DNA from: Dawidia soli
Lineage (GTDB): Bacteria > Bacteroidota > Bacteroidia > Cytophagales > Cyclobacteriaceae
Assembly (NCBI RefSeq): GCF_018598185.1
Contig: NZ_JAHESC010000007.1
Location: 62,001 to 126,000, forward strand
Direction: 5' to 3'
DNA: 64,000 nt
Part shown: positions 6,973 through 28,979 of the stretch, one piece after another
How the letters are laid out: each line of letters begins with the position of its first letter
How positions within the stretch are numbered: position 1 is the first letter of the stretch
Program-made: the position numbers and the translations under genes
The notes under the pieces: generated by a model
Seen by the model: the letters and a program-made list of their open reading frames with translations, nothing else
Told to the model about the DNA's origin: nothing
The model's database searches: none

Positions 6973-7238
6973 CTGATGTGGGCCGTGAAGCCTGGGAACA
7001 TACAGATCGTGAGAATTTTATTTAGTGATCGTGCGCGAGCGAAACATATACCTGCAGGACGTTATACGTCAGATTGCGCAGCGGATGAAGCAGGGGTAAA
7101 AAATCGGAAATTCCGGCTCAGCTGCCTGGGGGATACATTTCCCAGGCCCAGTGGTCGGTATTTTTTGTCATTTTATCCCCCTTTCGAAGGCCTGATCTCC
7201 GACGCCGGAATCCAGGTCTGGTGCGCACCTTTGTATCA

Positions 7239-7280
7239 TCCGGCGGGGCATGTACAGGTGCCTGACAGTGCCCCGCCGGA
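7239..7280. promoter_or_regulatory. 12-bp perfect hairpin in the leader of the PhnB-like gene
   Basis: TCCGGCGGGGCA (7239-7250) pairs perfectly with TGCCCCGCCGGA (7269-7280) around an 18-nt loop. A 6-bp inner pair GCACCT/AGGTGC partly overlaps it (7225-7230 with 7256-7261), so two alternative folds are possible. The hairpin ends 42 bp before the start codon and lacks a T-run, so it is not a standard terminator. Confidence 0.45.
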
Positions 7281-7322
7281 CGGAATATTCTAAAATGATA
7301 CAACCCCTTAAACAATTACAAC

Positions 7323-7808
7323 ATGAGCATGGTAGCAACCAATCAGAAAATTGTCCCTTTCCTGTGGTTCAATGGCAAGGCGGAAGAAGCGATGAAATTG
7401 TATACATCGCTGTTTGCCAATTCAACGATCGAGGCCATCAAAAAATGGGACGAAGGCAGTGGCTTTCGGGGCGTGATGGTAGGAACGATCGTCATTGACG
7501 GCCTGCGTGTCAACATGTTCGATGCCGGCCCGGACTTTACGTTCAGCGAGGCGGTTTCGTTCTTTGTGACCTGCAAGGACCAGGAGGAAGTAGACAAATA
7601 CTGGAACGCCCTGACCCGCGACGGCGGCGAGGAAAGTCAGTGCGGATGGTTAAAGGACAAATTCGGATTCTCCTGGCAGATCGTGCCAGCTTTCATGATC
7701 GATAAGATCAACAACGGTGAACCGAAACGTCTCGGCCAGTTGATGCAGGCTATGATGAAGATGCGGAAGCTGATCGTGGCCGACCTGGAGGCCGCCTACA
7801 ACAAATAG
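7323..7808 (+). CDS. PhnB-like VOC-family protein
   Basis: The product is 161 residues and belongs to the PhnB / 3-demethylubiquinone-9 3-methyltransferase-type branch of the vicinal oxygen chelate fold. Recognisable pieces are KIVPFLWFNGKAEEAMKLYT at the N-terminus, the central FNMFDAGP-like segment (VNMFDAGPDFTF), and the C-terminal SQCGWLKDKFGFSWQIVP, which is highly typical of this family. Members are small cytosolic dimers and most have no proven substrate. It is monocistronic, flanked by a leader hairpin and a strong terminator. Confidence 0.88.
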   Translation: MSMVATNQKIVPFLWFNGKAEEAMKLYTSLFANSTIEAIKKWDEGSGFRGVMVGTIVIDGLRVNMFDAGPDFTFSEAVSFFVTCKDQEEVDKYWNALTRDGGEESQCGWLKDKFGFSWQIVPAFMIDKINNGEPKRLGQLMQAMMKMRKLIVADLEAAYNK

Positions 7809-7866
7809 AAAAAGAATACGGCAGATTCACTTTCCAACGTATCTTTACACTACCGGGTCTACTATA

Positions 7867-7901
7867 CCACGCGTGACGGCAATATCACGCGTGGCTTTTT
7901 T
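7867..7901 (+). terminator. intrinsic terminator of the PhnB-like gene
   Basis: A perfect 10-bp stem CCACGCGTGA/TCACGCGTGG with an 8-nt loop is followed directly by C and seven T residues (7895-7901). Confidence 0.9.
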
Positions 7902-7925
7902 CGGGCAGTCCCAAAAGCATACGGT

Positions 7926-9064: not shown

Positions 9065-10426
9065 ATGGCCGTATCTGCAGACCTCGGGAAAGATCCGATT
9101 CCTTCACTTTTCTTTCGCTACTATGTGCCTACGTTGACCAGCATTATGTCGGTTACGGTGCAGATGATCGTAAACGGGCTATTGTTGGGCCATTACGTGG
9201 GCAAAGAGGGGGTTGCCGCGGTGGGTATCTATGGCCCTGTGCTGACGGTCTTTATCGCCTTTGTCCTGGCCTTGACGATCGGCGGTGGCATTCTGATTGC
9301 CCACAGCATCGGTGCCGGTGACGGTGCGCGGGCGCGCGGGGTATTATGCTTTGGCACCACGCTGGCGCTGACGGCCGGCTTGGTCGTGGCGGTCAGTGCG
9401 CCGTTTGTCGCGGCACCGCTGGCGCGGTTCCTGGTGGGGGCCGAGCACGTGTCACTCGTGCAGAATACGCGGGATGTCATGCTTTGGGGCTTTGTCGGCA
9501 TGCCCGTGCTGTTTGTGCGCATTGTCTGGGGACACTTTGTCGTGAACGATGGCAGTCCGCGCGTGGCACGCAATGCGTCGCTGATAGCGGTGGCGTTGAA
9601 CATCGCCCTCGATTTTATAGTTATTGTCTGGCTGGGATGGGGCACTGCCGGAGCGTCGATTGCCACGGCATTGGGTAATGCCTTTGCGATGGGGTACTTG
9701 TTCTGGTATATCCGTCAGGGGCGTGGCCAACTGCACTTTGGTAACTTTCGGTTTACACTGTACTTTCCCGCGTGGAGGTTGCTGTTCCAGGCCGGTGTGC
9801 CGTCGCTTTTGTCGGAGCTGTCGTTTTCGCTGGGCCTGCTGATCATCAGCCGTAGTTTGGTGTCTTATGGTGAGTCGGCGGTAGCGGCATTCGGGTTGAT
9901 CAACCACCTGAGCTTTATCTTTCTTCGGTTACTAACGGCAGCCATGCTTGCTGCCTTGCCGATCATGTCATTCAACGTAGGAGCGCAGAAGCCGGCGCGC
10001 GTGTTGGCCATGCTACGGTTTGCCATGATGTTTTCGGTAGTGATCGGCGTGGCGGTTTGTGGTATCGGGTGGCTGGTGCCCGGGCTCCTGATACGCATCT
10101 TTTCGACTGAGACCACCGCGGCATTTGAGTCGCTGGCCGCGGGTGGGTTGTCGTTGTATTTCTTACTGTTTTTGGTGGCCGGCCCGAATTATATATTGGG
10201 TGCGTATTTTCAAAGCACGGGCAAGACGGCGATGTCGATTATCGTTAACCTGTTGAAAGGTGTTGTACTTGTCGCAGTGTTTGTATGGGTGTTGCCGATG
10301 CAGCACCCGGGACTGACAGGTATATGGTTGTCGCGCGTCGGAGCGGAGGCGGCAACGTTGATGCTGGTAGGGGGAATTACCTTCTTATACCGGCGGCGCT
10401 ACTATTCTCAAATCGTTACGACGTGA
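9065..10426 (+). CDS. MATE-family multidrug/sodium antiporter
   Basis: The product is 453 residues from ATG 9065, which has a GGGAA stretch 8 nt upstream. An ATG at 9056 in the same frame is the alternative. There are about 12 hydrophobic segments in two homologous halves. The first half opens with FFRYYVPTLTSIMSVTVQMI and the second with the LLFQAGVPSLLSELSFSLGL segment, the standard MATE arrangement. The predicted role is efflux of cationic or organic compounds driven by Na+ or H+. Length and topology are normal. Confidence 0.9.
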   Translation: MAVSADLGKDPIPSLFFRYYVPTLTSIMSVTVQMIVNGLLLGHYVGKEGVAAVGIYGPVLTVFIAFVLALTIGGGILIAHSIGAGDGARARGVLCFGTTLALTAGLVVAVSAPFVAAPLARFLVGAEHVSLVQNTRDVMLWGFVGMPVLFVRIVWGHFVVNDGSPRVARNASLIAVALNIALDFIVIVWLGWGTAGASIATALGNAFAMGYLFWYIRQGRGQLHFGNFRFTLYFPAWRLLFQAGVPSLLSELSFSLGLLIISRSLVSYGESAVAAFGLINHLSFIFLRLLTAAMLAALPIMSFNVGAQKPARVLAMLRFAMMFSVVIGVAVCGIGWLVPGLLIRIFSTETTAAFESLAAGGLSLYFLLFLVAGPNYILGAYFQSTGKTAMSIIVNLLKGVVLVAVFVWVLPMQHPGLTGIWLSRVGAEAATLMLVGGITFLYRRRYYSQIVTT

Positions 10427-10439
10427 TCGCGCTGTTCGG

Positions 10440-10832
10440 CTACACTTCGTCCAGCCACAATTCTGCGGTGGCCCGGTCGCGGAAGTTCTTTTTTGGAAAT
10501 TGCGTCGTTTTCGCCACCGAGTCGAGCTGCATTTCGGTCACGTCGTTCTGCATGATTTCGGCAACTTTCCGGACTCCTCCTTTAAGCAATAGTGTTTGCG
10601 CTTCTTCGTGTAGCTTGCGAAGTTCCTGCGGATGGGTTTTCATTTCCGAGGCATCGGTCAGCAAGGTGAAATTCTTTTTGAGCCCCGCCAGAGCTTTTTT
10701 CCAGTCGGCAACGTAGGTGGGTACCGCTTCGGGATTGCGCCAGAAGCCGATGATCTTCAGGTAAGCACGGTTCTTGTCCGGTGCGATTTCGATGATATAG
10801 TGTTTGTTGTTGCTGATGGTCGTCAGGCTCAT
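10440..10832 (-). CDS. SpoIIAA/STAS-like single-domain protein
   Basis: The product is 130 residues, soluble, with an alternating strand/helix pattern: YIIEIAPDKNRAYLKIIGFW, then a helix, then FTLLTDASEMKTHPQEL, then a long helix and a C-terminal RDRATAELWLDEV. This pattern and the ending match the small STAS-like / SpoIIAA-like proteins common in Bacteroidota. No phosphorylatable Ser in an obvious anti-anti-sigma motif is apparent. The gene is convergent with the MATE gene (13 bp apart) and distantly resembles the STAS-like gene at 23524-23952. Confidence 0.6.
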   Translation of the reverse strand: MSLTTISNNKHYIIEIAPDKNRAYLKIIGFWRNPEAVPTYVADWKKALAGLKKNFTLLTDASEMKTHPQELRKLHEEAQTLLLKGGVRKVAEIMQNDVTEMQLDSVAKTTQFPKKNFRDRATAELWLDEV

Positions 10833-10873
10833 ACAGAGAGGGTTGGGGGTGCTGGAAAGTAGCGCGACAATAT

Positions 10874-10889
10874 TACGGGTTTACCCGTA
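10874..10889. promoter_or_regulatory. palindrome upstream of the STAS-like gene
   Basis: TACGGGT-TT-ACCCGTA is a perfect inverted repeat 42 bp upstream of the STAS-like start. A run of T follows on the plus strand, but no plus-strand gene ends here. On the minus strand it sits where a promoter would be, so an operator is a reasonable but untested reading. Confidence 0.35.
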
Positions 10890-10909
10890 TTTTTTTATGC
10901 CCGGACCAA

Positions 10910-10941
10910 CAAAAACGGGCAGGGGAAAAACACCCTACCCG
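10910..10941 (-). terminator. terminator of the CsgG-like gene
   Basis: A 9-bp stem with one mismatch (10916-10924 with 10933-10941) lies 27 bp after the stop of the minus-strand gene. On the minus strand it is followed by a run of five T. Confidence 0.7.
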
Positions 10942-10967
10942 TTCTGAAAAGTTATGTTATCGGTGAT

Positions 10968-12674
10968 TTACCGGTGATATAGATAGCTCAGGCCGATGTT
11001 ATAATACAGGCCGCTGAGGTCTACGTTGCTATAGGGAACGATGCTGGCCGGGGCGGTGGCGTTTTTGGTATCGTCGTCCACGGTTACGTCGTACTTCCAC
11101 TTTTTGTATCGCATATGATCATACGACACCGAGCCGGACAGTACGAAACGCTTTATCGTCCATTGCACGCCCGCCTGGGCCGACAGGAAGATGGATGATG
11201 CATTTACCTTGTCGGACTTGCCTTCACTGATATCGCCGATGATGCTGCTCGGCACTTCCTGCTTGAGGCCGCCGTAGCCCAGCGACGGTCCCAGGGTGAC
11301 ATGGAGCTTTTCATGGATCAGTGGCAGCTCATAGAGCACTTCGAGGCGGCCGGTCCAGTTGTTGAGGTGATCCATGCGGTAAATGTCAAACAGCAGGGCG
11401 GTGCTCAGGTCTTTTACAAGGTTCTTCACGCCAAACCCAACAGTATAGATGGAGATGCTTTCAATGTCCTGGAAGCTGCCCAGCGGGGTCGTATCGACGT
11501 TATAGTCGCCGTGGTCATTGCGAACGGTGACCATACCGGCCGGCCTGGTGGCTTTGATCCGGGTGCCCAGGCCAGACTTATAACCGACTTTAACAAAACG
11601 CTTCCGTGCATCGCGGTCTTCATTGGTCTCGGTTATATTCAGCCCGGGTTCCAACTGGCCGATCCCGCGGTATACTTTACCCTCGGCATAGTCCTGGTAT
11701 ACGTTCGTGATGTGGATCCGGCCGAGAACTTCTTCTTTTTGGTTGATGTGGTCGCCGATCTTTTCCTCGACCAGACGGACGCATTTGTAGGCATCGCCTT
11801 TCTGGATGTTCAGGTCTCTGCCGGCGTCGATCACAACGTGGTTACCGTCTATTTTTTCGATCCGGGCCATATTCACGGTAGCGTCGCCACCTTTCGGCTC
11901 GCGTGCGAGCTTGCCCGCCATGTTTTTGGCATCGCCTTGCAGCACCCGGGCGGTAGCGCCGTGTTCAGCAGCGAAGGTGATCTTGATCTGGCCGATCACA
12001 CTATTGCCATCGGCGGACAAGACCTCGTAAAATTCCTGTTCGTGCAGGCCGTCGGCAGTGCCCTTGGTAACGGATACCTGGTTGGACGATACCTGTTTGT
12101 CAATACGGACTATCACGGGAAAGTACTTGTTTACCTGACTGGCCAGGTTTTGTGCCGTCAACTTGAGAGACTGGCGAATGGCCTCGTCGCGGTTGCCGGC
12201 CGTAGCATTGTGTTCGGCCTGAAAAGACTTTTCGAACTGGCCGGTTTCCAGGTTCAGGATCTTGAGCGTAGCGTAGGCGGTGGCAACGTAATAATGTTCG
12301 GTTGTGGTGTTGTTGCCCGACGTGCGGGTTTTCTCTTCGTGGTGTACGCGGGTCAGGTTGCCGGCGAGCAGGTATTTAGCGCCCGACATCTTGCCCAGGT
12401 CGATGGCCGACTTCGGATCGACGAAGTCTTTTATGGCCAGCTCGTTTTCGATCGCCTTCCACATTTCGCCGCTGCGCGTTACGACGGCGACCTTGTTGGC
12501 GTTTACCAACAGGTTGAGCGTGGCCTCGTGGAGGGTCCGTGCACGCTCCCGGGCGGACGGGTAGTCCTCCGATTGCATATCCTGGAAAATGATGTTGGGT
12601 CTTTCGGACTGGCTAAAGGCACAAAACGGGAAGCCGAGAAGTGATAACAGGAGGAAATGCCGAAGGCGGTTCAT
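10968..12674 (-). CDS. CsgG-like N-terminal domain fused to an outer-membrane beta-barrel-like domain
   Basis: The product is 568 residues with a signal peptide (about 1-21, ending FCAFSQ). Residues about 25-190 resemble the CsgG / curli assembly or FlgT-like fold: a mixed domain with DPKSAIDLGKMSGAKYLLAG and VATAYATLKILNLETGQ. A middle region (about 190-370) carries two repeated small beta domains (VSVTKGTADGL and VVIDAGRDLNIQKGDAYK). The last ~190 residues alternate hydrophobic and polar residues and end SGLYYNIGLSYLYHR, with an aromatic near the C-terminus like an outer-membrane barrel. A secretion or surface-assembly role is inferred. The gene is isolated, with its own terminator. Confidence 0.6.
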   Translation of the reverse strand: MNRLRHFLLLSLLGFPFCAFSQSERPNIIFQDMQSEDYPSARERARTLHEATLNLLVNANKVAVVTRSGEMWKAIENELAIKDFVDPKSAIDLGKMSGAKYLLAGNLTRVHHEEKTRTSGNNTTTEHYYVATAYATLKILNLETGQFEKSFQAEHNATAGNRDEAIRQSLKLTAQNLASQVNKYFPVIVRIDKQVSSNQVSVTKGTADGLHEQEFYEVLSADGNSVIGQIKITFAAEHGATARVLQGDAKNMAGKLAREPKGGDATVNMARIEKIDGNHVVIDAGRDLNIQKGDAYKCVRLVEEKIGDHINQKEEVLGRIHITNVYQDYAEGKVYRGIGQLEPGLNITETNEDRDARKRFVKVGYKSGLGTRIKATRPAGMVTVRNDHGDYNVDTTPLGSFQDIESISIYTVGFGVKNLVKDLSTALLFDIYRMDHLNNWTGRLEVLYELPLIHEKLHVTLGPSLGYGGLKQEVPSSIIGDISEGKSDKVNASSIFLSAQAGVQWTIKRFVLSGSVSYDHMRYKKWKYDVTVDDDTKNATAPASIVPYSNVDLSGLYYNIGLSYLYHR

Positions 12675-17295: not shown

Positions 17296-17617
17296 GTTCG
17301 GGTAAACGACTGGATTCCTGGACAGGTTCCTGACGCTGTGGATATTCCTGGCGATGCTCGCGGGCGTGATATTGGGTAACGTGCTGCCGGTCGAGAACGT
17401 AATGAACCACTTCCAGGTGGGAACGACCAACGTGCTGATAGCGGTGGGGTTGATTGTGATGATGTATCCTCCACTGGCGAAGGTGCGGTATGAGCACTTG
17501 GGAAAGGTATTCAGGAATGTAAAAGTGATCGGGCTGTCGCTGGTTTTGAACTGGGTGGTGGGACCGCTGCTGATGTTCTTGCTGGCGGTGTTGTTCCTGC
17601 ATGACAAGCCGGAGTAC
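17292..17617 (+). pseudogene. ACR3-type arsenite efflux permease, frameshifted and truncated
   Basis: From ATG 17292 the frame reads MSSGKRLD and stops at once. In another frame the sequence continues [20 protein letters not shown], exactly the ACR3 N-terminus, so one base is missing near codon 8. Homology then runs through [20 protein letters not shown] (including the conserved MMYPPLAKV segment) to FLHDKPEY near 17617. There it ends abruptly after about 105 of the usual ~350 residues, replaced by an unrelated 29-codon tail. About three transmembrane helices remain, so no transport is possible. The missing export step leaves the cluster dependent on another pump. Confidence 0.9.
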
Positions 17618-17654
17618 AGTGCTTTTGGAACGCCGGAGCGAAATGGTGGGAGTT

Positions 17655-17668
17655 TAGTTGCGTCTTTT
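17655..17668. repeat. 14-bp direct repeat, left copy
   Basis: TAGTTGCGTCTTTT occurs here, between the ACR3 breakpoint and sigZ, and again at 18252-18265 at the end of sigZ. Two identical 14-mers within 600 bp are unlikely by chance. Confidence 0.7.
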
Positions 17669-17717
17669 CAGGACCGGTTCCGTCAAGAGGGTATGAACCT
17701 GGATTAAATCGTATTCT

Positions 17718-21077: not shown

Positions 21078-23537
21078 ATGTCGCGAAACACAAATAAGTT
21101 TATTAACACCATCGACGAGTGTTTAACCAATGGTGTCAGGAACGGAATATTTCAGGTCGCTACGGAAGACGAAAGCTTGAACGGAAGGCAGGTGACGATC
21201 AATGGCAGGCAGGTAGTCAACTTTGGATCGTGTAGCTATTTGGGCCTGGAAATGGATGATCGGCTTAAACAGGGGGCTATTGATGCTACCATGCGGTACG
21301 GCACGCAATATTCCTCCTCGCGTGCTTATTCCTTCTGCCACCTGTATGAAGAATTGGAGTCGCTGTTTTATAAGATCTTCAATAACAACCCGGCCATATT
21401 GGCCGCCACAACCACCCTGGCTCACGTAGCAGCAGTTCCTGTTCTTGTGCAAAGCGACGATCTTGTTATTTTGGATCACCAGGTGCATGGCAGCGTACAA
21501 CTCGCGGCGCAGCTCGCGAAAGCTCAGGGAACACGGGTAGAGATGATCAGGCACAACCGCATGGATATGCTGGAAACGCTGATCAAAGAAAATCCGAACA
21601 AATACAATCGCATCTGGTACATGGCTGATGGGCTGTATTCCATGTACGGAGATTTTGCGCCAATGCAAGACATTGTTTTCCTGATGGAAAAGTATCACAA
21701 TTTCCATTTATACATCGACGATGCGCACGGTATGAGTTGGAAAGGAAAAAATGGCAACGGCTACGTACTCAGCCAAATCCCCATGCACCCCAAAATGGTA
21801 TTGACGACTTCGCTGGCCAAAGGATTTGGGACCGGGGGCGGTGTTACCGTCATGTCGGATAAGGAGATGATGCGAAAAATTCTGACGTGCGGAAGTTCCT
21901 ACACTTTCTCCGGTCCCGTGCAGCCTCCGATGCTTGGAGCTTCTGTTGCGAGTGCTAAAATCCATTTAACGGAAGAGATTGATATATTGCAGAATAGGCT
22001 GAAGAGTAAAATTGAATTAACCAAAGCGATAATAGATCAATATGCTCTCCCATTGGTTTACCCGTCTGACTCGCCCATTTTTTATCTTGCCCTCGGACTG
22101 CCCCGCACCGGCTATAATATGGTAAAGCGGTTGCTACACGATGGCTTCTTCACCAATATCGGCATTTTTCCTGGCGTGCCGGTCAATTGCACCGGACTGC
22201 GGTTGCCGATCACCAACGGGCACACGGAGCAGGATATAAGAAATTTGCTCGAAAGGTTCCATTATCACTTTCCGATGGTGCTGGAAGAAGAAGACATTAG
22301 CCTCGATAAAATAAGTGCCAGCTTTAAAGCACCCTTTACCGAAACGAAAAAACATTTCGCTTCCACGGCATTGACCGGCGAACAGGATACATTTCATGTT
22401 CAGCATGAGACAACGATCCACAACGTAGACCGGGGAATATGGGACAAGCTGTTGGGGCAAAGTACGTATGACTGGGAAGGATGTCGTTTTATGGAAGAAA
22501 CGTTTCGCGACAATGAAGAGGACGAAAATAACTGGCAGCTGCATTATTTGATGATCAGAGACTCGTCTGACAAAGTGATACTGGCGACCTTCTTTACGGA
22601 ATTGATCTGCAAAGATGACATGATCGCGCCGTCTGCGGTTTCAGAGCAGATTGAGGAGATACGAAAAAGATCCAAATACTACCTCACCTCGAAGGTGATC
22701 ATGATGGGTTCTCTGATCACAGAGGGAGAGCATTTGTTTCTGGATCGGAGCCATCCGTTGTGGAGGAAGGCGTTACTGGAAATGATCGTTGTCATGAATG
22801 AGGTGAAACAGAGATCAGGCGCCAGTATGCTTCAATTACGGGATTTGTATAGCGAAGACGACGAAATAGCCGATTTTTTAATTCGGGAAGGTTTTATTAA
22901 AGTAGAAATGCCTGAAACCCATAGGGTGTCCGATGTAAACACATGGCATACCGAAGAGGAATTCATGAAACGATTGTCAGGTCCCGAGCGCTGGCACTTC
23001 CGACGGAAAATCCAGGATAACAAGCATTTTTTTGACGTTTCGATATTGACCGGCGATCAAAAATTGCAAAAAGGAAAGGTCGAGGAATGGTACGGATTGT
23101 ATTCAAACGTAAAAGGGAAGAGCCTTGCTATTAATACGTACCCATTGCCCCACAAATTTTTTGAGAATATAGCCCTGCATCCTTCCTGGGAAATTATTCA
23201 GTTGAGATTAAAACGTGAATATGCTGAGAAGGAGCCGGTCGTGGCGCTGGGGTTCTGCTACCGGTCTGCGCAGAATAATTATGCCATTGTCCTGGTGGGA
23301 CTGGACTACGATTATGTGGTTAGCCACGGTTGCTACCGGCAGACGTTGTACCAGTCGGTTTTGCGTGCAAACGAGTTGCAGTGCAACGTTCACCATATGG
23401 GAATGGACGCCACCATTGAGAAACAGCGATTTGGAGTAGATGTTATTTCTAAAAGTGTTTATATTCAGGCTGACGACAATTTTAACCTGGAATTAATAGC
23501 GACGGTCTATTCTAGAAATACGCATGGAACGACTTAA
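21078..23537 (+). CDS. alpha-oxoamine synthase fused to a FemAB/GNAT-like acyltransferase
   Basis: The product is 819 residues. Residues 1-400 are a PLP-dependent alpha-oxoamine synthase (relatives: 8-amino-7-oxononanoate synthase, serine palmitoyltransferase, CqsA). LDHQVHGS, YIDDAHGMSW and the Schiff-base Lys in VLTTSLAKGFGTGGG are all present, so condensation of an acyl thioester with an amino acid is expected. Residues about 440-815 form a second enzyme of the double-GNAT FemAB/peptidoglycan-acyltransferase type (FRRKIQDNKHF, LGFCYRSAQNNYAIVL, YRQTLYQSVLRANEL), which could N-acylate the aminoketone product. Both start and end are cytosolic. It overlaps the STAS-like gene by 14 nt and heads an operon with a hybrid kinase. 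Substrates are unknown; sphingolipid/sulfonolipid-like or signal-molecule products are the main options. Confidence 0.85.
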   Translation: MSRNTNKFINTIDECLTNGVRNGIFQVATEDESLNGRQVTINGRQVVNFGSCSYLGLEMDDRLKQGAIDATMRYGTQYSSSRAYSFCHLYEELESLFYKIFNNNPAILAATTTLAHVAAVPVLVQSDDLVILDHQVHGSVQLAAQLAKAQGTRVEMIRHNRMDMLETLIKENPNKYNRIWYMADGLYSMYGDFAPMQDIVFLMEKYHNFHLYIDDAHGMSWKGKNGNGYVLSQIPMHPKMVLTTSLAKGFGTGGGVTVMSDKEMMRKILTCGSSYTFSGPVQPPMLGASVASAKIHLTEEIDILQNRLKSKIELTKAIIDQYALPLVYPSDSPIFYLALGLPRTGYNMVKRLLHDGFFTNIGIFPGVPVNCTGLRLPITNGHTEQDIRNLLERFHYHFPMVLEEEDISLDKISASFKAPFTETKKHFASTALTGEQDTFHVQHETTIHNVDRGIWDKLLGQSTYDWEGCRFMEETFRDNEEDENNWQLHYLMIRDSSDKVILATFFTELICKDDMIAPSAVSEQIEEIRKRSKYYLTSKVIMMGSLITEGEHLFLDRSHPLWRKALLEMIVVMNEVKQRSGASMLQLRDLYSEDDEIADFLIREGFIKVEMPETHRVSDVNTWHTEEEFMKRLSGPERWHFRRKIQDNKHFFDVSILTGDQKLQKGKVEEWYGLYSNVKGKSLAINTYPLPHKFFENIALHPSWEIIQLRLKREYAEKEPVVALGFCYRSAQNNYAIVLVGLDYDYVVSHGCYRQTLYQSVLRANELQCNVHHMGMDATIEKQRFGVDVISKSVYIQADDNFNLELIATVYSRNTHGTT

Positions 23538-23952
23538 CTTGAAAGAGTATAAAACAACGTCATTCTGGATGAGTGGGGTGGATGATGCGATCATCTTTTG
23601 GAATTATGCGCCGGGCCTGGAAATGGACATCGCCATTGCCCGGGAGTTGGTTCAGCATCGCCTGGAGTACACCCATGGCAAACCGATGTATGCAATGATC
23701 GACGTAACCAATTTAAAGGCAACCACGAAAGAAGCGCGTGATTTTATGAATAGCAGGGAGGGCGGCCTGAAAGGGCTTTTAGGAGGTGCTTTTTTGTCTA
23801 ATAACGTAGTTTCTACACTTTTGGTGAACCTTTATCTTAAAGTGAGCAGACCTGCCATCCCGGCCCGATTCTTTACCGATCGGGAGGAAGCATTGAGTTG
23901 GTTGTTAAAAATTAAGAAGGAAAACGCCCCACGTAAAGTAAGTACACCATAG
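23524..23952 (+). CDS. SpoIIAA/STAS-like protein
   Basis: The product is 142 residues, soluble, beginning inside the preceding synthase gene (14-nt overlap), so translation is probably coupled. The pattern of a strand, a helix (LEMDIAIARELVQHRLEY), then the strand YAMIDVTNLKATTKEARDFM, a further helix and FTDREEALSWLLKIKKEN matches the Bacteroidota STAS-like group. It resembles the 10440-10832 gene in layout and in its C-terminal motif. Such proteins may bind small ligands or partner proteins. Lying between an enzyme and a kinase, it could link the two. Confidence 0.65.
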   Translation: MERLNLKEYKTTSFWMSGVDDAIIFWNYAPGLEMDIAIARELVQHRLEYTHGKPMYAMIDVTNLKATTKEARDFMNSREGGLKGLLGGAFLSNNVVSTLLVNLYLKVSRPAIPARFFTDREEALSWLLKIKKENAPRKVSTP

Positions 23953-23974
23953 TGCATGCTTTAACACCAATATA

Positions 23975-25924
23975 ATGTCACAGATGGAGGGAAATGATAT
24001 GCAGACACGAACCACTGTTGTAGACACAGAACTTCTGCTGAAAGTGTCGGAATTAAGCGAGGCCATACTCCGTGGGGACTTTTCAAAACGCATTGTTAGT
24101 GATTTTGATGATAGTCCCCTGGCAAAAATTGCTGTTTACCTCAATCAGTTGTCGGATCAGGTACAGTTGAACAGCGAAAGGAAAACGCATGAGCAAACCG
24201 TCAATAGTTTTATCGATGTGATCAGCTCGTTTGCCAACCTTGATTTTACAAAAAAGCTTCCGATCTCGGAAAATGGCACTGTTATGGACGCCATAGCGAC
24301 GGGCATAAATATTCTCGGCGAAGAACTGCAACAGACCACTGCCTCTAAACTGGAATTGGAAACTGAGCGGAACAAGCTCAAAGAGGCTCAATCCATGGCC
24401 AAGGTAGGCAGCTGGGAGTTGGATGCTTCGTCGTTGACCTTGACGGCGTCTCATGAAGCATACCGGATTTTGGGGTTGGACAAAAATGAAAATCCCAACC
24501 TTTTTGAAGAGATCAGGAAAAAAGTACATCAGGAAAACTTACCCAGGCTTGTCTATCTGATCAGGTCGGCTATCGCAAAAAAAGAAGATTTTATCGTGGA
24601 GGTCAAGATCACCCTGGATAACGGTGTGGTAAAAGATGTGCTTTGTATTGGCGAGGTGCTTGCCGACGAAGACAGCTCGTTCGTAAATTTGAAGGGCACG
24701 ATCCAGGATATAACGGAGCGCAAGCAGATCGAGCAATCCTTAAAAGAAGCCAAGGAGTTTGCCGAGGAAGCAAACAATGCTAAAAGCAAGTTTCTGGCAA
24801 ACATGAGTCATGAAATGCGTACACCGCTGAATGGCATACTGGGACTCACGGAGATCATATTGGGCGAACAAGTTTCAGACGAGCATCGGAATTATCTTGA
24901 AATTATTCGTAATTCCGGCAAGAACCTCGCGCAGCTGATTAACGACATCCTCGATCTGAGCAAGATTGAAAACAAGAGGCTTCAGTTGGAAGATATCCCC
25001 TTTGATTTCCACAAGACAATTTTGGCCACCGTTAATTCGTATAAGTTTCTGGCTGATCAAAAAGGGCTTACGTTGTCCTGTCATATCGATCCGTTGATTC
25101 CATTGGAAGTAATGGGAGACCCGACGCGTGTCTCGCAAGTACTTACGAATCTGATCAGTAATGCCATCAAGTTTACAGAGGAGGGTAGTATCGCGGTCCG
25201 CTTTACGCTCCATGGTCGCAGGTCGGAGGAATTAACGATTCACGGTGCGGTGACTGACACCGGACCGGGAATACCAAAAGAAAAAATGGACGTGATTTTT
25301 CAAAGCTTTACGCAGGCGGATGATAGCATCACCCGGAAATACGGAGGCACCGGGCTGGGTCTGAGTATCGTAAAAAATTTGTTGACGCAGATGAATGGGA
25401 GTATTACCGTAGAGAGCCCGGCGGACCCGATAATAAATACCGGTACAACATTTCATTTTTCATTGATCTTAAAATCGTCGGGCCGGGCGCCAGCCGAAAC
25501 GCCAAAGTCGAGCCTGCCAGTGAAATTAGTATTTGAAAACCCGGCAGCTATTCTTGTGGTGGATGATAATCCAATGAATTTATTAGTGGCAAAGAAGATG
25601 CTGAAAAAGTTTGGTGCCCAGGTTACCATCACCCAGAGTGGATACGATGCGATCGACTTGATCAAGAGAACGCAGTTTGATATGGTGCTCATGGATATTA
25701 GAATGCCGGGACTCAATGGTTATGAGACAGCATCCGAAATGCGTAAACTGGATTTTAAAATGCCCATAGTTGCGCTGTCGGCCAATGGATATGAAGAAGA
25801 TTTGCGGAATAGTATAGAGTCGGGTATGAATGATCATATCACAAAACCTTATACGGAGGCACACTTGTTTGAAGTGGTAAATAAGTATATCACTATGGGA
25901 GCCATTTATTCAGGGAAACGGTGA
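23975..25924 (+). CDS. soluble hybrid histidine kinase/response regulator with HAMP-like and PAS domains
   Basis: The product is 649 residues with no membrane segment. In order: two HAMP-like stretches (about 20-60, SEAILRGDFSKRIVSDFDD, and about 85-125, NLDFTKKLP), a PAS domain (about 140-255, MAKVGSWELDASSLT to DITERKQIEQSL), HisKA (about 270-335, FLANMSHEMRTPLNGILG with the phospho-His), HATPase_c (about 380-500, NLISNAIKFTEEG, DTGPGI, GGTGLGLSIV), and a receiver (about 525-640, ILVVDDNPMN, MVLMDIRMPG, KPY). All phosphorelay residues are present. The gene follows the STAS-like gene after 22 bp. The signal must be cytosolic or delivered by a protein partner. No separate output regulator is in the operon. 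Confidence 0.9.
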   Translation: MSQMEGNDMQTRTTVVDTELLLKVSELSEAILRGDFSKRIVSDFDDSPLAKIAVYLNQLSDQVQLNSERKTHEQTVNSFIDVISSFANLDFTKKLPISENGTVMDAIATGINILGEELQQTTASKLELETERNKLKEAQSMAKVGSWELDASSLTLTASHEAYRILGLDKNENPNLFEEIRKKVHQENLPRLVYLIRSAIAKKEDFIVEVKITLDNGVVKDVLCIGEVLADEDSSFVNLKGTIQDITERKQIEQSLKEAKEFAEEANNAKSKFLANMSHEMRTPLNGILGLTEIILGEQVSDEHRNYLEIIRNSGKNLAQLINDILDLSKIENKRLQLEDIPFDFHKTILATVNSYKFLADQKGLTLSCHIDPLIPLEVMGDPTRVSQVLTNLISNAIKFTEEGSIAVRFTLHGRRSEELTIHGAVTDTGPGIPKEKMDVIFQSFTQADDSITRKYGGTGLGLSIVKNLLTQMNGSITVESPADPIINTGTTFHFSLILKSSGRAPAETPKSSLPVKLVFENPAAILVVDDNPMNLLVAKKMLKKFGAQVTITQSGYDAIDLIKRTQFDMVLMDIRMPGLNGYETASEMRKLDFKMPIVALSANGYEEDLRNSIESGMNDHITKPYTEAHLFEVVNKYITMGAIYSGKR

Positions 25925-26096
25925 TCTTTTTTTCATCAGCATACAGTTTGCCCCCACCGGCATAGGCTATCTAAAATTGGAACCGGATCGTTGCCCTTGT
26001 TCTCAATCTGGTTAAATTCATCCCTTAAAAAATGAAGTTCATCAGACAATCGGGGGATTGGTAATAAATCTTCTGGGGAAATTCTATTTTTGGAGG

Positions 26097-27122
26097 ATGG
26101 TTCGGATTAAAAGAACAGATGTAAAGAAGCTATTCATTTTTCTCTCGTCCACACTGATCTATGCATTGTGCCAAATGCTATTCAGCATTATTCTGATGAA
26201 GGAGGACTTGTGGAGTAATTTCCATATCCAGTTGTCAGCCCATTATACGGTAATATTCACGATGTGCATAGCTGATTACGGATTGTTAATATTGTTAAAT
26301 AAATATTTACCCTACTCGAAAAATATATTACTCCGAATATTGGCGGGACTCGCGGGGTTAACGATAGTATGCTTAGTGTTAATATGGTTATTTAATTACC
26401 TGATATACGACATATTTCAAATTTCTAAAGATGGGATGCCTTCTTTCCTGATAAAGTTTGCATTTGGTATGGCGGCAAATATTCCCATCTTATTGGTATT
26501 CGAGCTGATCTATTATTTTCAATCGGAACAAAAGGCCATAGCCAATTCTGAAAAAGCAAAACGTGAGGCGCTGTTATTTCAACACGAAACGTTGCGGGCG
26601 CAGATAAATCCGCATTTTTTGTTTAATTCATTGAACGTGCTGTCTTCATTGATATATATAAATCCTGACAATGCCAATAAATTCACAAAAGCGCTTTCCA
26701 AGACTTATCGGTATGTACTTTCCCTTAATCGTCGGCCGCTGGTTTCCGTTGCGGAAGAATTGAATGCGCTGGATCCGTATATTTTCTTGATGAAAATGAG
26801 ATTTGAAAATTCCTTTGTTTTCACGGTAAACAAAGTGTCTGGCCATGAAGAAAATAGCATTATTCCATTGACGTTGCAATTATTGATAGAAAACGTATTT
26901 AAGCATAACGTAGCAACAGAGGAAATGCCGTTAGATATAAAAATTGCGATCAACAGTGGATACATTACAGTGGAGAATAACATACAGCGGTCGAACGATG
27001 TGGAAAAAGGCGGGATCGGGCTTAAATACCTGGCAAAGCAATATGGATTATATGACAAAGAGGTCGTTTTTGAGCATACTGAGCACATGTTTGTTGTAAA
27101 AATTCCATACATCCAGCCATGA
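26097..27122 (+). CDS. LytS/YehU-type membrane sensor histidine kinase
   Basis: The ATG at 26097 gives 341 residues; upstream in-frame codons have no ATG. Four membrane helices (about 12-130) are followed by a short coiled segment and the His-kinase motif of this family, LRAQINPHFLFNSLNVLSSL. A compact ATPase domain then carries LLIENVFKHNVAT and GGIGLKYLAKQYG. It should phosphorylate the LytTR regulator encoded immediately downstream, whose start overlaps its stop by 4 bp (ATGA). Low-GC codon use compared with the flanking arsenic and peptidase regions is noticeable. Confidence 0.9.
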   Translation: MVRIKRTDVKKLFIFLSSTLIYALCQMLFSIILMKEDLWSNFHIQLSAHYTVIFTMCIADYGLLILLNKYLPYSKNILLRILAGLAGLTIVCLVLIWLFNYLIYDIFQISKDGMPSFLIKFAFGMAANIPILLVFELIYYFQSEQKAIANSEKAKREALLFQHETLRAQINPHFLFNSLNVLSSLIYINPDNANKFTKALSKTYRYVLSLNRRPLVSVAEELNALDPYIFLMKMRFENSFVFTVNKVSGHEENSIIPLTLQLLIENVFKHNVATEEMPLDIKIAINSGYITVENNIQRSNDVEKGGIGLKYLAKQYGLYDKEVVFEHTEHMFVVKIPYIQP

Positions 27123-27874
27123 ATTATCTGATAGTAGAGGATGAACGGTTTGCATACGAGGAACTGAAGCGTATGATGACAAAGTTGCGCCCTGATTATT
27201 TGTTGGAAACACGGACCAAAGCAGTCATCGATACTATTAGATTTCTGAAAGAATCTCACGTTGATCTGATCCTTATGGATATTCGCCTGGCAGATGGCAA
27301 CTGTTTCGAGATATTCAATCACGTAAAGGTATCCACTCCGGTTATATTTACCACCGCCTATGACGAGCATGCGATCAAAGCTTTTAAACTAAACAGCATC
27401 GATTACCTGTTAAAACCTTTTGACGAAAAAGAGTTAGACGCGGCATTGCGCAAATTTGAAGATATCTTTCACAATGACTCGTATAAAACCAGTCCTGGAA
27501 ATTTTGAACAACTACTCTCTCTCAAAACCAAGAATCGTTTCCTGATATCGAAGGGAGAGAACTATCATTATATCGAAACAACGGACGTTGCCTTTTTTTA
27601 CAGCGAGGAGGGAGTCGTGTTTCTGCATACATTCCAGAATAAACGGTATGTCATTAATTATACGTTAGACCAATTAGAACAACAACTTGATATTCGCTTA
27701 TTTTTTCGTGTATCGCGTAATTGTGTGGGCAATCTCAAAGCCATCGACAATGTTGCCAGATATTTCAATAGCCGGTTGAAGCTTTCCTTTTCGCCCGAAT
27801 GCCCACACGAAGTCCTGGTAAGCCGGGTACGTGTTCCAGACTTCCTGAAATGGATGGACGGAATTGTGGAGTAG
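27119..27874 (+). CDS. LytTR-family response regulator
   Basis: The product is 251 residues. The receiver domain (1-120) has the acidic pocket (IVEDER), phospho-Asp in LILMDIRLADG, and the KP motif in YLLKPFDEKEL. The LytTR DNA-binding domain (about 145-250) contains FYSEEGVVFLHTFQNKRYVI and RLFFRVSRNCVGNLKAI. It pairs with the kinase upstream. An obvious candidate target is the outer-membrane protein gene that begins 172 bp downstream. Confidence 0.92.
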   Translation: MNYLIVEDERFAYEELKRMMTKLRPDYLLETRTKAVIDTIRFLKESHVDLILMDIRLADGNCFEIFNHVKVSTPVIFTTAYDEHAIKAFKLNSIDYLLKPFDEKELDAALRKFEDIFHNDSYKTSPGNFEQLLSLKTKNRFLISKGENYHYIETTDVAFFYSEEGVVFLHTFQNKRYVINYTLDQLEQQLDIRLFFRVSRNCVGNLKAIDNVARYFNSRLKLSFSPECPHEVLVSRVRVPDFLKWMDGIVE

Positions 27875-28046
27875 CGACCGGTGTTGGCGATCCTGCGGGC
27901 AGATCTGTGAATTCAGTTTGTTCTACTCATACTAAACTTCATTCCGCTAATCCTGAAGTCAACGATTTTATAGCTTTCAACTTCATGGCATTCCTTCATT
28001 CTTTGATAAAAATTACGAATACGTGCGAATGCAAATTTTGAATCAC

Positions 28047-28979
28047 ATGAAGTTAATATCATTATTCTCAGTCACCTTGGTAACGTTACTAACCCTGGAG
28101 GGGAGAGCGCAGGAAGTGTCTTTCAGGACAGAGTACATCGGGAATTCTGGCTACTACTATCTGCCACCGGGCGACAAACCGAAAGAAAGGATTGGTGATG
28201 CCAATGGTTCTGCTATGGTCTACCAGGCATCGGTCAATGTACCATTATCCATGGAGTTAAATAAGAACAATCGGCCGACCGCTTGGGGTGTTGCTTTTGG
28301 CGGAGCATACGTTTCGTTGAAAAATGAAGATTTCAAGGACGAAATGATATCCGAAATCATGAATTTGCAGTTGGGGATCTATCATCTGCGCCCATTGAAT
28401 GATAAATGGTCTATGAGAGCAAGCGTTGGAATAGGTGTATTTACTCCGTCCACCGATTTTTCGAAGATCCGGTTCAAACATGTGCTTGGAAGTGGGGGAG
28501 TTGTTTTCATCCGTCACTTGAAACCGAACCTGGATATTGGTGGAGGCGCAGCCATCAATAGCGCGTTAGGTTATCCCATGATGTTTCCCGCCGTGTATGT
28601 TAAATGGAAACTTGATAAGAAATTCGATGTGAATATTGAGCTGGTAGAAGGTCTCGAAATAGCGGCCGGTTATGATTTTAATGACAGGCTCAAACTGTCC
28701 TATGCTCTTGAAATGAACGGCCAGGTTGCGTTGTTGGAAAGGGACGGCAAAGATGTGATATTCTCTCACCAATATATCGTTACGGGTTTTCGTCCCGAGG
28801 TAAAGTTGGCTAAGACGGGACTCTCACTGACCGGTATGGCGGGGTTAAACATATACCGCCCAGCTTCTTACACCGAGAGGACATTGAAAGGGGTTTTTGC
28901 GTCTGATAGTGATTATTATTTTTCTGTTTCCCCGTATGTGTCGGTTGGTTTAAAGAAGAAATTTAACAGGGTGAATTGA
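28047..28979 (+). CDS. outer-membrane beta-barrel protein (DUF6268-like)
   Basis: The ATG at 28047 gives 310 residues with a clean signal peptide (MKLISLFSVTLVTLLTLEGR, cleavage after RAQ). The body is a series of alternating beta strands (LGIYHLRPLNDKWSMRASVG, AVYVKWKLDKKFDVNIELVE) ending in YFSVSPYVSVGLKKKFNRVN, as in small Bacteroidota barrels annotated DUF6268. No catalytic motif seen. The position after the LytS/LytTR pair suggests regulated expression. From 28980 to 29283 I see no gene. Confidence 0.65.
   Translation: MKLISLFSVTLVTLLTLEGRAQEVSFRTEYIGNSGYYYLPPGDKPKERIGDANGSAMVYQASVNVPLSMELNKNNRPTAWGVAFGGAYVSLKNEDFKDEMISEIMNLQLGIYHLRPLNDKWSMRASVGIGVFTPSTDFSKIRFKHVLGSGGVVFIRHLKPNLDIGGGAAINSALGYPMMFPAVYVKWKLDKKFDVNIELVEGLEIAAGYDFNDRLKLSYALEMNGQVALLERDGKDVIFSHQYIVTGFRPEVKLAKTGLSLTGMAGLNIYRPASYTERTLKGVFASDSDYYFSVSPYVSVGLKKKFNRVN

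Follow-up and report, generated by a model that had tools for sequence, protein, structure and literature searches.

The 64,000-nucleotide stretch of the Dawidia soli genome analysed here (contig NZ_JAHESC010000007.1, positions 62,001 to 126,000; hereafter the window) carries a regulatory cassette built around a fused aminoketone synthase-acyltransferase, whose conservation leaves little room for doubt. In the ORF list of the window, three plus-strand open reading frames form a tight operon at 21078-25924; they are labeled A (the synthase-acyltransferase fusion), B (a DUF7793 protein) and C (a hybrid kinase), and H denotes the HAMP-like module at the N-terminus of C. Genomes are designated by G numbers (G000 is the window's own) and loci by L numbers; f7 is one other family of Bacteroidota. 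The genes and their domains, with the basis of each assignment, are arranged as follows:

21078..23537, + strand: gene A, alpha-oxoamine synthase plus GNAT/FemAB-type acyltransferase region, 819 aa (ORF, Pfam, alignment, model)
21078..22337, + strand: A, alpha-oxoamine synthase (PLP) domain, residues ~1-420 (Pfam, alignment, Foldseek)
22365..23534, + strand: A, acyltransferase region, residues 430-819, predicted as two successive GNAT-like units (Pfam matches of homologues; reading of the model)
23524..23952, + strand: gene B, DUF7793 protein with SpoIIAA/STAS-like fold, 142 aa (Pfam, structure matches of the model)
23975..25924, + strand: gene C, soluble hybrid histidine kinase with HAMP-like, PAS, HisKA, HATPase_c and receiver parts, 649 aa (ORF, Pfam, H profile, hydrophobicity scan)
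24047..24394, + strand: C, HAMP-like module H, apparently in two copies, with approximate limits (H profile; limits borrowed from the L034 homologue)
24440..24703, + strand: C, PAS domain (Pfam PAS_3)
24779..24973, + strand: C, HisKA domain (Pfam)
25115..25468, + strand: C, HATPase_c domain (Pfam)
25550..25879, + strand: C, receiver domain (Pfam Response_reg)

The start of B overlaps the end of A by 14 nt, and 22 nt separate B from C. An earlier note on this DNA had described three overlapping or nearly touching genes, the first with all PLP-site residues and a FemAB/GNAT-type domain in the same chain, the third a complete hybrid kinase with no membrane segment; these readings were borne out, that of the acyltransferase domain by way of homologues of A. 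The HAMP-like N-terminus of C, absent from that note, is common to the sensors at other loci. As possible output of C, the LytS/LytTR pair and the DUF6268 gene that follow it (26058-28979) were rejected on grounds of conservation: with these genes as queries, no gene was marked as theirs beside the operon in L034 or L035. Elsewhere in the window, a short ORF at 17354-17707, flanked by an arsenate reductase-like and a sigma-factor-like gene, resembles a truncated arsenite transporter.

The synthase half of A has a Pfam match to Aminotran_1_2 (residues 45-394, E 3e-19), and residues K248, H137, D214, H217 and R375 are invariant in an alignment of 30 fusions; we take them to have roles at the PLP site, K248 presumably as the Schiff-base lysine and R375 as the carboxylate-binding residue. 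By its sequence and its structure matches, A is assigned to the alpha-oxoamine synthase superfamily of fold-type I PLP enzymes. The closest solved structure to this half in Foldseek is that of the alpha-oxoamine synthase Alb29 (PDB 8xha, 8xhk; 8xhk at E 1.4e-27, with 28% identity in the structural alignment), whose crystallised chain of ~400 residues lacks the acyltransferase region that is fused in A; CqsA structures ranked well below those of Alb29, serine palmitoyltransferase (SPT) and BioF. The best family match was NCBIfam NF005697 (PRK07505), a family named "hypothetical protein" with no function given, and at 267.9 bits A falls under its cut-off of 342. Assignments of A as hydroxyketone autoinducer synthase (NF005526; 78 bits against a cut-off of 428), as SPT (NF047599, NF047600 and NF047603; 150, 141 and 116 bits against 500, 640 and 670), as BioF (TIGR00858; 184.7 bits against 426) and as KBL/glycine C-acetyltransferase (TIGR01822; 121 bits against 493) were rejected, and no match to NF005526 above its cut-off was found in G000.

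The C-terminal region of the window copy (~390 residues) has no credible Pfam match of its own, and its assignment as a GNAT/FemAB-type acyltransferase is made by sequence through its homologues: at Pfam E-values up to 5, Acetyltransf_6 (PF13480) is listed for 29 of 35 homologous C-terminal regions (best E 3.5e-11) and FemAB_like (PF04339) for 12 of the 35 (best E 8.2e-9). In the AlphaFold model of A (mean pLDDT 88.5), two successive alpha/beta units can be read from the predicted secondary structure after residue 440. Viral GNATs and viral N-myristoyltransferases were among the structure matches to the whole model, matches that come without a printed aligned range; the best 50 matches in a PDB structure search with A all concerned the synthase half, and a comparison of solved structures with the acyltransferase-region profile gave three weak matches only (best E 0.1). 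Two A copies (L040 11785-14216 and L088 5934-8361), both beside B and H genes, are read as two ORFs, and a different type of fusion occurs in the same family as the window, where an alpha-oxoamine synthase forms part of a 1203-residue protein (L120 3931). In L065, A is followed after 5 bp by a fatty acid desaturase gene (7006-7917, E 5.6e-35), which hints at a fatty acyl chain in the product of A.

Gene B belongs to DUF7793 (PF25056; E 3e-29, 101.7 bits against a gathering cut-off of 26). Its model (pLDDT 90) matches SpoIIAA-like/STAS structures, among them 2q3l at E 3.5e-6; B has the fold of SpoIIAA/STAS proteins, yet DUF7793 is a family of unknown function. A Pfam scan of the window neighbours recognised no partner of the SpoIIAB/SpoIIE type. 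Near the A-B-H genes of L036, an ORF at 9902-11491 resembles by eye a receiver-PAS-SpoIIE-type phosphatase, and is a possible partner of the STAS-like protein.

In gene C, Pfam identified PAS_3, HisKA, HATPase_c and Response_reg domains, and a Kyte-Doolittle scan found no hydrophobic segment. In the window's family and in L033, the kinases that carry module H are of the hybrid, plain HisKA, HisKA_2 or HisKA_3 type, often with a PAS-like region in between (kinase types from inspected sequences, with Pfam applied to the window, L033, L036 and L053). In f7, H is followed by an AraC-type HTH_18 domain, identified by Pfam in L084 and L086, seen in the sequences of L081 and L088, and assigned in the other four loci by H match, length and position. 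With H joined either to varied kinases or to AraC domains, A, B and H are kept and the output is exchanged; as judged from these sequences, H and not the kinase is the constant part of the sensor. The unit of synthase, STAS-like protein and sensor that had been proposed as conserved therefore stands, with the correction that its constant part is a HAMP-like module with interchangeable outputs and not a hybrid kinase.

By hand count among the matches listed, in which weak matches fall last, full-length fusions are present in 33 of 196 genomes of the window's family; beyond these, G098 has a stand-alone synthase and G002 a partial fusion at a contig end. The acyltransferase region was found in 8 of 395 genomes across the phylum, the window's own and seven of f7. 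Three relatives were found by identity of this region: Parachryseolinea silvisoli (82%), Chryseosolibacter indicus (68%) and a Bacteroidota MAG (49%). For the linkage analysis, 46 fusion places were counted, consisting of the window, L033-L067 (two each in L038 and L040) and L081-L088; L068 and L069 (no acyltransferase half), L070 (contig end) and L031/L032 (the same places as L034/L035) were excluded. The earlier note had raised the co-occurrence of the three genes across Bacteroidota as a check, and a conserved association was found: 38 of the 46 places have B no more than 500 bp from A and 32 have an H protein within 5 kb of A, with both at 31 and either at 39. The note's refuting case, in which homologues of the fusion would mostly lack the kinase and the STAS-like gene, is not what these counts show. 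Neither B nor H occurs beside other alpha-oxoamine synthases in 20 control neighbourhoods from fusion-bearing genomes (~6 kb on each side). The H profile was seeded with 7 of the 32 H proteins, so that 25 were not seeds, and the B profile was built without the B copies beside the f7 fusions. Per genome, by hand count within the window's family, B is present in 31 of 33 fusion genomes vs. 15 of 163 others.

Adjacent B is missing from eight fusion places and H from fourteen. Among the places lacking B, L045 is cut by a contig end; the genomes of L059-L061 have a B-B-H cassette elsewhere (L094-L096) and that of L064 a separate B-H pair (L102); L044 shares its genome with another copy (L055), which has B; and L065 and L067 come from genomes with no B match. 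Among 15 further B loci, 11 have H beside B (4 of 6 in fusion-free genomes), and so do 6 of 13 short phylum loci, of which two overlap and show a single place and one retains an A fragment. These B-H pairs make the association of B and H broader than their link to A; the pair need not sense the product of A, which counts against H being tied to that product only. A stand-alone B-H cassette is seen in L098 (5813-9543), where B lies between two H proteins and A is absent. In L151 (738-1247), about 100 residues of A are left beside B-H and run into other sequence, which recurs in L149, where no A lies within the short flank; this sequence resembles a conjugation ATPase.

Protein distances within the cassette covary (Spearman 0.64 for A-B, 0.56 for A-H and 0.55 for B-H, over 38 and 31 places, reached by none of 2000 permutations), a covariation that is confounded with species descent. 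Paralogues in two genomes were compared at four places: at three of them, A and B have their nearest relatives at one locus or in one small clade, and L041 is the exception. Among the neighbours, which were viewed unsystematically, no constant export or import gene was seen.

In phylogeny, the synthase halves of A form one clade (48 rows, support 100/100), far from SPT, KBL, BioF and cysteate acyltransferase; its root is uncertain because of long branches. Within it, a main group of 41 rows (support 97/84) includes some fusions without B, and seven rows fall outside: the stand-alone synthases L068 and L069, the fusion L067, and L050, L058, L064 and L065. The neighbours of L067 and L068 are complete hybrid kinases, predicted to have 4 and 5 membrane segments, respectively; that of L069 has PAS domains and 3 predicted segments and runs into the contig end before a kinase domain is reached. 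The membrane segments of these neighbours had no credible NCBIfam match. No membrane kinase was noted alongside the other four of the seven basal rows (L050, L064, L058 and L065), and L050 and L058 have B.

The AraC-type loci of f7 share a promoter element. In seven of the eight, the divergent A/B promoter contains tandem repeats of the TTGTCAAWTCGGGA type, 21 bp apart; the eighth, L086, has one single weaker site. By weight matrix, a matrix built from the same sites that it scores, the tandem element also precedes the operon downstream of the AraC gene in five of eight loci (in L085 it lies inside an over-long ORF start), and a sixth case, L088, is found as a pattern with 3 mismatches. This operon encodes a MauE-like membrane protein and a small, secreted-looking, cysteine-containing DUF6520 protein (L081 5456-7329, L082 10187-12038 and equivalents); Pfam supports both calls in L082, the small protein of L081 falls below the cut-off, and elsewhere the calls follow position and the sequences seen. 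In three places, a third tandem copy occurs at a distance of 12-14 kb from A; it precedes matches to an ABC-three-component system (CTD12, DUF2326) in L143 (6891-6929) and a primase-like gene in L144 (6710-6748). At up to 3 mismatches, the pattern has 13 places in seven whole genomes, compared with 2 for the reversed pattern; the 13 comprise six A/B promoters, two sites before the MauE gene, three third copies and two elsewhere in G391, and G296 has none.

Outside f7, a scan of 1.06 Mb, covering L033 and loci of the window's family, gave no tandem site, and the promoter of the window operon is without any site; nor was a shared promoter repeat found in the window's family, where none of 25 divergent regions reached the 5% level. 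Single sites over threshold occurred in 4 of 38 non-f7 regions (L036, L046, L050 and L054), against 6.4% of shuffled regions. Taken singly, the repeat is significant in four of the eight f7 regions (equalled in 9, 15, 1 and 1 of 300 shuffles for L082, L084, L085 and L087), and the remaining regions gave 71 (L081), 235 (L083), 163 (L086) and 79 (L088) of 300; the support therefore comes partly from the recurrence of one word at several loci. Direct repeats ~21 bp apart are common binding sites of AraC-family proteins, and we read the f7 repeats as probable autoregulation of the A/B promoter by the AraC protein. Genes near the f7 cassettes include an S9 peptidase (L081) and a SusD protein with a TonB-dependent receptor (L143). 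An RteC-family regulator (PF09357) adjoins A downstream in the four f7 loci tested (L082, L086, L087 and L088); the RteC family is known from conjugative transposons.

What is observed here, namely a conserved gene set with its folds, the output swap and the repeated promoter sites, is in our view best explained, at about even odds, by an autoregulated circuit in which A would make an N-acyl aminoketone that B and H sense. From an amino acid and an acyl thioester, the synthase half of A would form an alpha-aminoketone whose amine the fused GNAT half would acylate, yielding a small N-acyl aminoketone from one polypeptide. This product would remain in the cell or re-enter it, where the soluble pair of STAS-like B and HAMP-like H, often with PAS, would sense it; H would relay its state to the attached output, a histidine kinase in the window's family and an AraC-type DNA-binding domain in f7. 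There, the AraC protein would act directly on the A/B promoter, closing a loop like that of LuxI/LuxR. That the product of A is the signal read by B and H is the most economical account of the output swap and the promoter repeats, and stands in our view at the midpoint between acceptance and doubt; the product, its binding by B and H, the binding of the AraC protein to the repeats and the positive sign of the loop are what we infer.

The strongest competitor, possible although short of an even chance, is local regulation without signalling: B and H would sense another cue (redox, membrane state or a nutrient) and switch on A, whose product would be a specialised metabolite or lipid, with the AraC protein as an ordinary local activator. 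The B-H pairs of fusion-free genomes (4 of 6 such loci) speak for it, as they must sense something without A, and so do the PAS domain of C and the divergent A/B promoter with its repeats, a layout that local regulators usually form with their targets. Against it, the sensor of the window is a hybrid kinase without an output domain of its own, the neighbours of the A relatives in L067-L069 represent a different sensor class, and the repeats shared with the adjoining operon in five of eight AraC-type loci indicate a circuit that controls more than A.

A different role for the cassette, which we regard as unlikely, would make A a one-chain SPT and bacterial ceramide synthase whose ketoceramide- or sulfonolipid-like bulk lipid is monitored by the kinase. 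According to the excerpted text of PMC11324152, ceramide synthesis in Caulobacter involves Spt and the N-acyltransferase CerS, and thus likewise joins an alpha-oxoamine synthase step to an N-acylation step; in contrast, A is one fused chain, is linked to regulators, and has a separate SPT in its genome. Profile searches found four further alpha-oxoamine synthases in G000, namely an SPT above its cut-off (738 bits against 640), a KBL above its cut-off, a BioF-like synthase below its cut-off, and a synthase matching the cysteate-C-fatty acyltransferase 28eh (E 2.5e-182). A is thus distinct from these four, a fifth such enzyme, and the genome has other candidates for bulk sphingolipid and sulfonolipid synthesis, which makes the plain sphingoid or sulfonolipid product offered as an alternative in the earlier note less likely. 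The low SPT scores of A and the restriction of full-length fusions to 33 of 196 family genomes, among the matches listed, count in the same direction; the desaturase gene beside A in L065 and the viral myristoyltransferases among the structure matches count in the other. Similarly, an ORF that overlaps the end of the canonical SPT gene of G000 (L089 2598-3719, contig C36) is GNAT-like by eye and a candidate N-acyltransferase of the ordinary sphingolipid route, yet a family search gave no match confirming it as a GNAT. Homology between this ORF and the acyltransferase region of A was rejected, the profile comparison being insignificant (probability 4.7%).

Finally, the acyltransferase half could place an aminoacyl group on the aminoketone, which would cyclise to a pyrazinone like DPO/AI-3; we hold this to be very improbable. 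FemAB proteins use aminoacyl-tRNA, and two of the 35 acyltransferase regions have weak arginyltransferase matches (best E 0.0019). The precedent is N-alanyl-aminoacetone, which cyclises to the autoinducer DPO as described in the excerpted text of PMC12930378. The better profile matches go to generic acyltransferase models, however, and viral myristoyltransferase structures match the A model as well. 

A farther-reaching reading, which we propose tentatively and at less than even confidence, is a new class of intracellular chemical signalling in Bacteroidota that would combine an N-acyl (or aminoacyl, then pyrazinone-forming) aminoketone made by a fused enzyme, a STAS-like receiver or presenter, a HAMP-like reader, interchangeable outputs, and direct autoregulation of the synthase promoter.

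Among known signalling systems, CqsA/CqsS of Vibrio and LqsA/LqsS of Legionella, which serve alpha-hydroxyketone quorum sensing, resemble the cassette in that a histidine kinase gene neighbours the gene of a PLP-dependent alpha-oxoamine synthase; membrane hybrid kinases are also found next to the A relatives L067 and L068. The comparison with CqsA/LqsA made in the earlier note holds as an analogy, but not as membership: A falls below the synthase-family cut-off and carries a fused acyltransferase, and its locus includes a DUF7793 gene and a soluble HAMP-like sensor or an AraC regulator. CqsS and LqsS are six-helix membrane kinases, as stated in the excerpted text of PMC3376566; C, the kinase adjacent to A in the window, has no hydrophobic segment. 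The AraC version of the cassette invites a second comparison. LuxI/LuxR is a one-component quorum-sensing system that pairs a synthase gene with a cytosolic DNA-binding regulator, and the AraC version shares this pairing together with likely operator repeats in the synthase promoter; it differs in its unrelated protein families, its extra STAS-like protein and a ligand that is so far a proposal.

To our knowledge, dedicated small-molecule autoinducer circuits have hardly been described in Bacteroidota. The cassette is not described among the titles and abstract openings listed in literature searches on CqsA/hydroxyketone, oxoamine synthase-acyltransferase, autoinducer synthase and STAS-kinase in Bacteroidota, and no paper was found on DUF7793. 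The cassette looks like an undescribed bacterial signalling system, one that brings its own candidate receptor and gives DUF7793 a possible role. The short promoter repeat of the AraC version makes a reporter test straightforward, and the occurrence of one sensor module on a kinase in one family and on a transcription factor in another constitutes a natural experiment in the change of sensor output.
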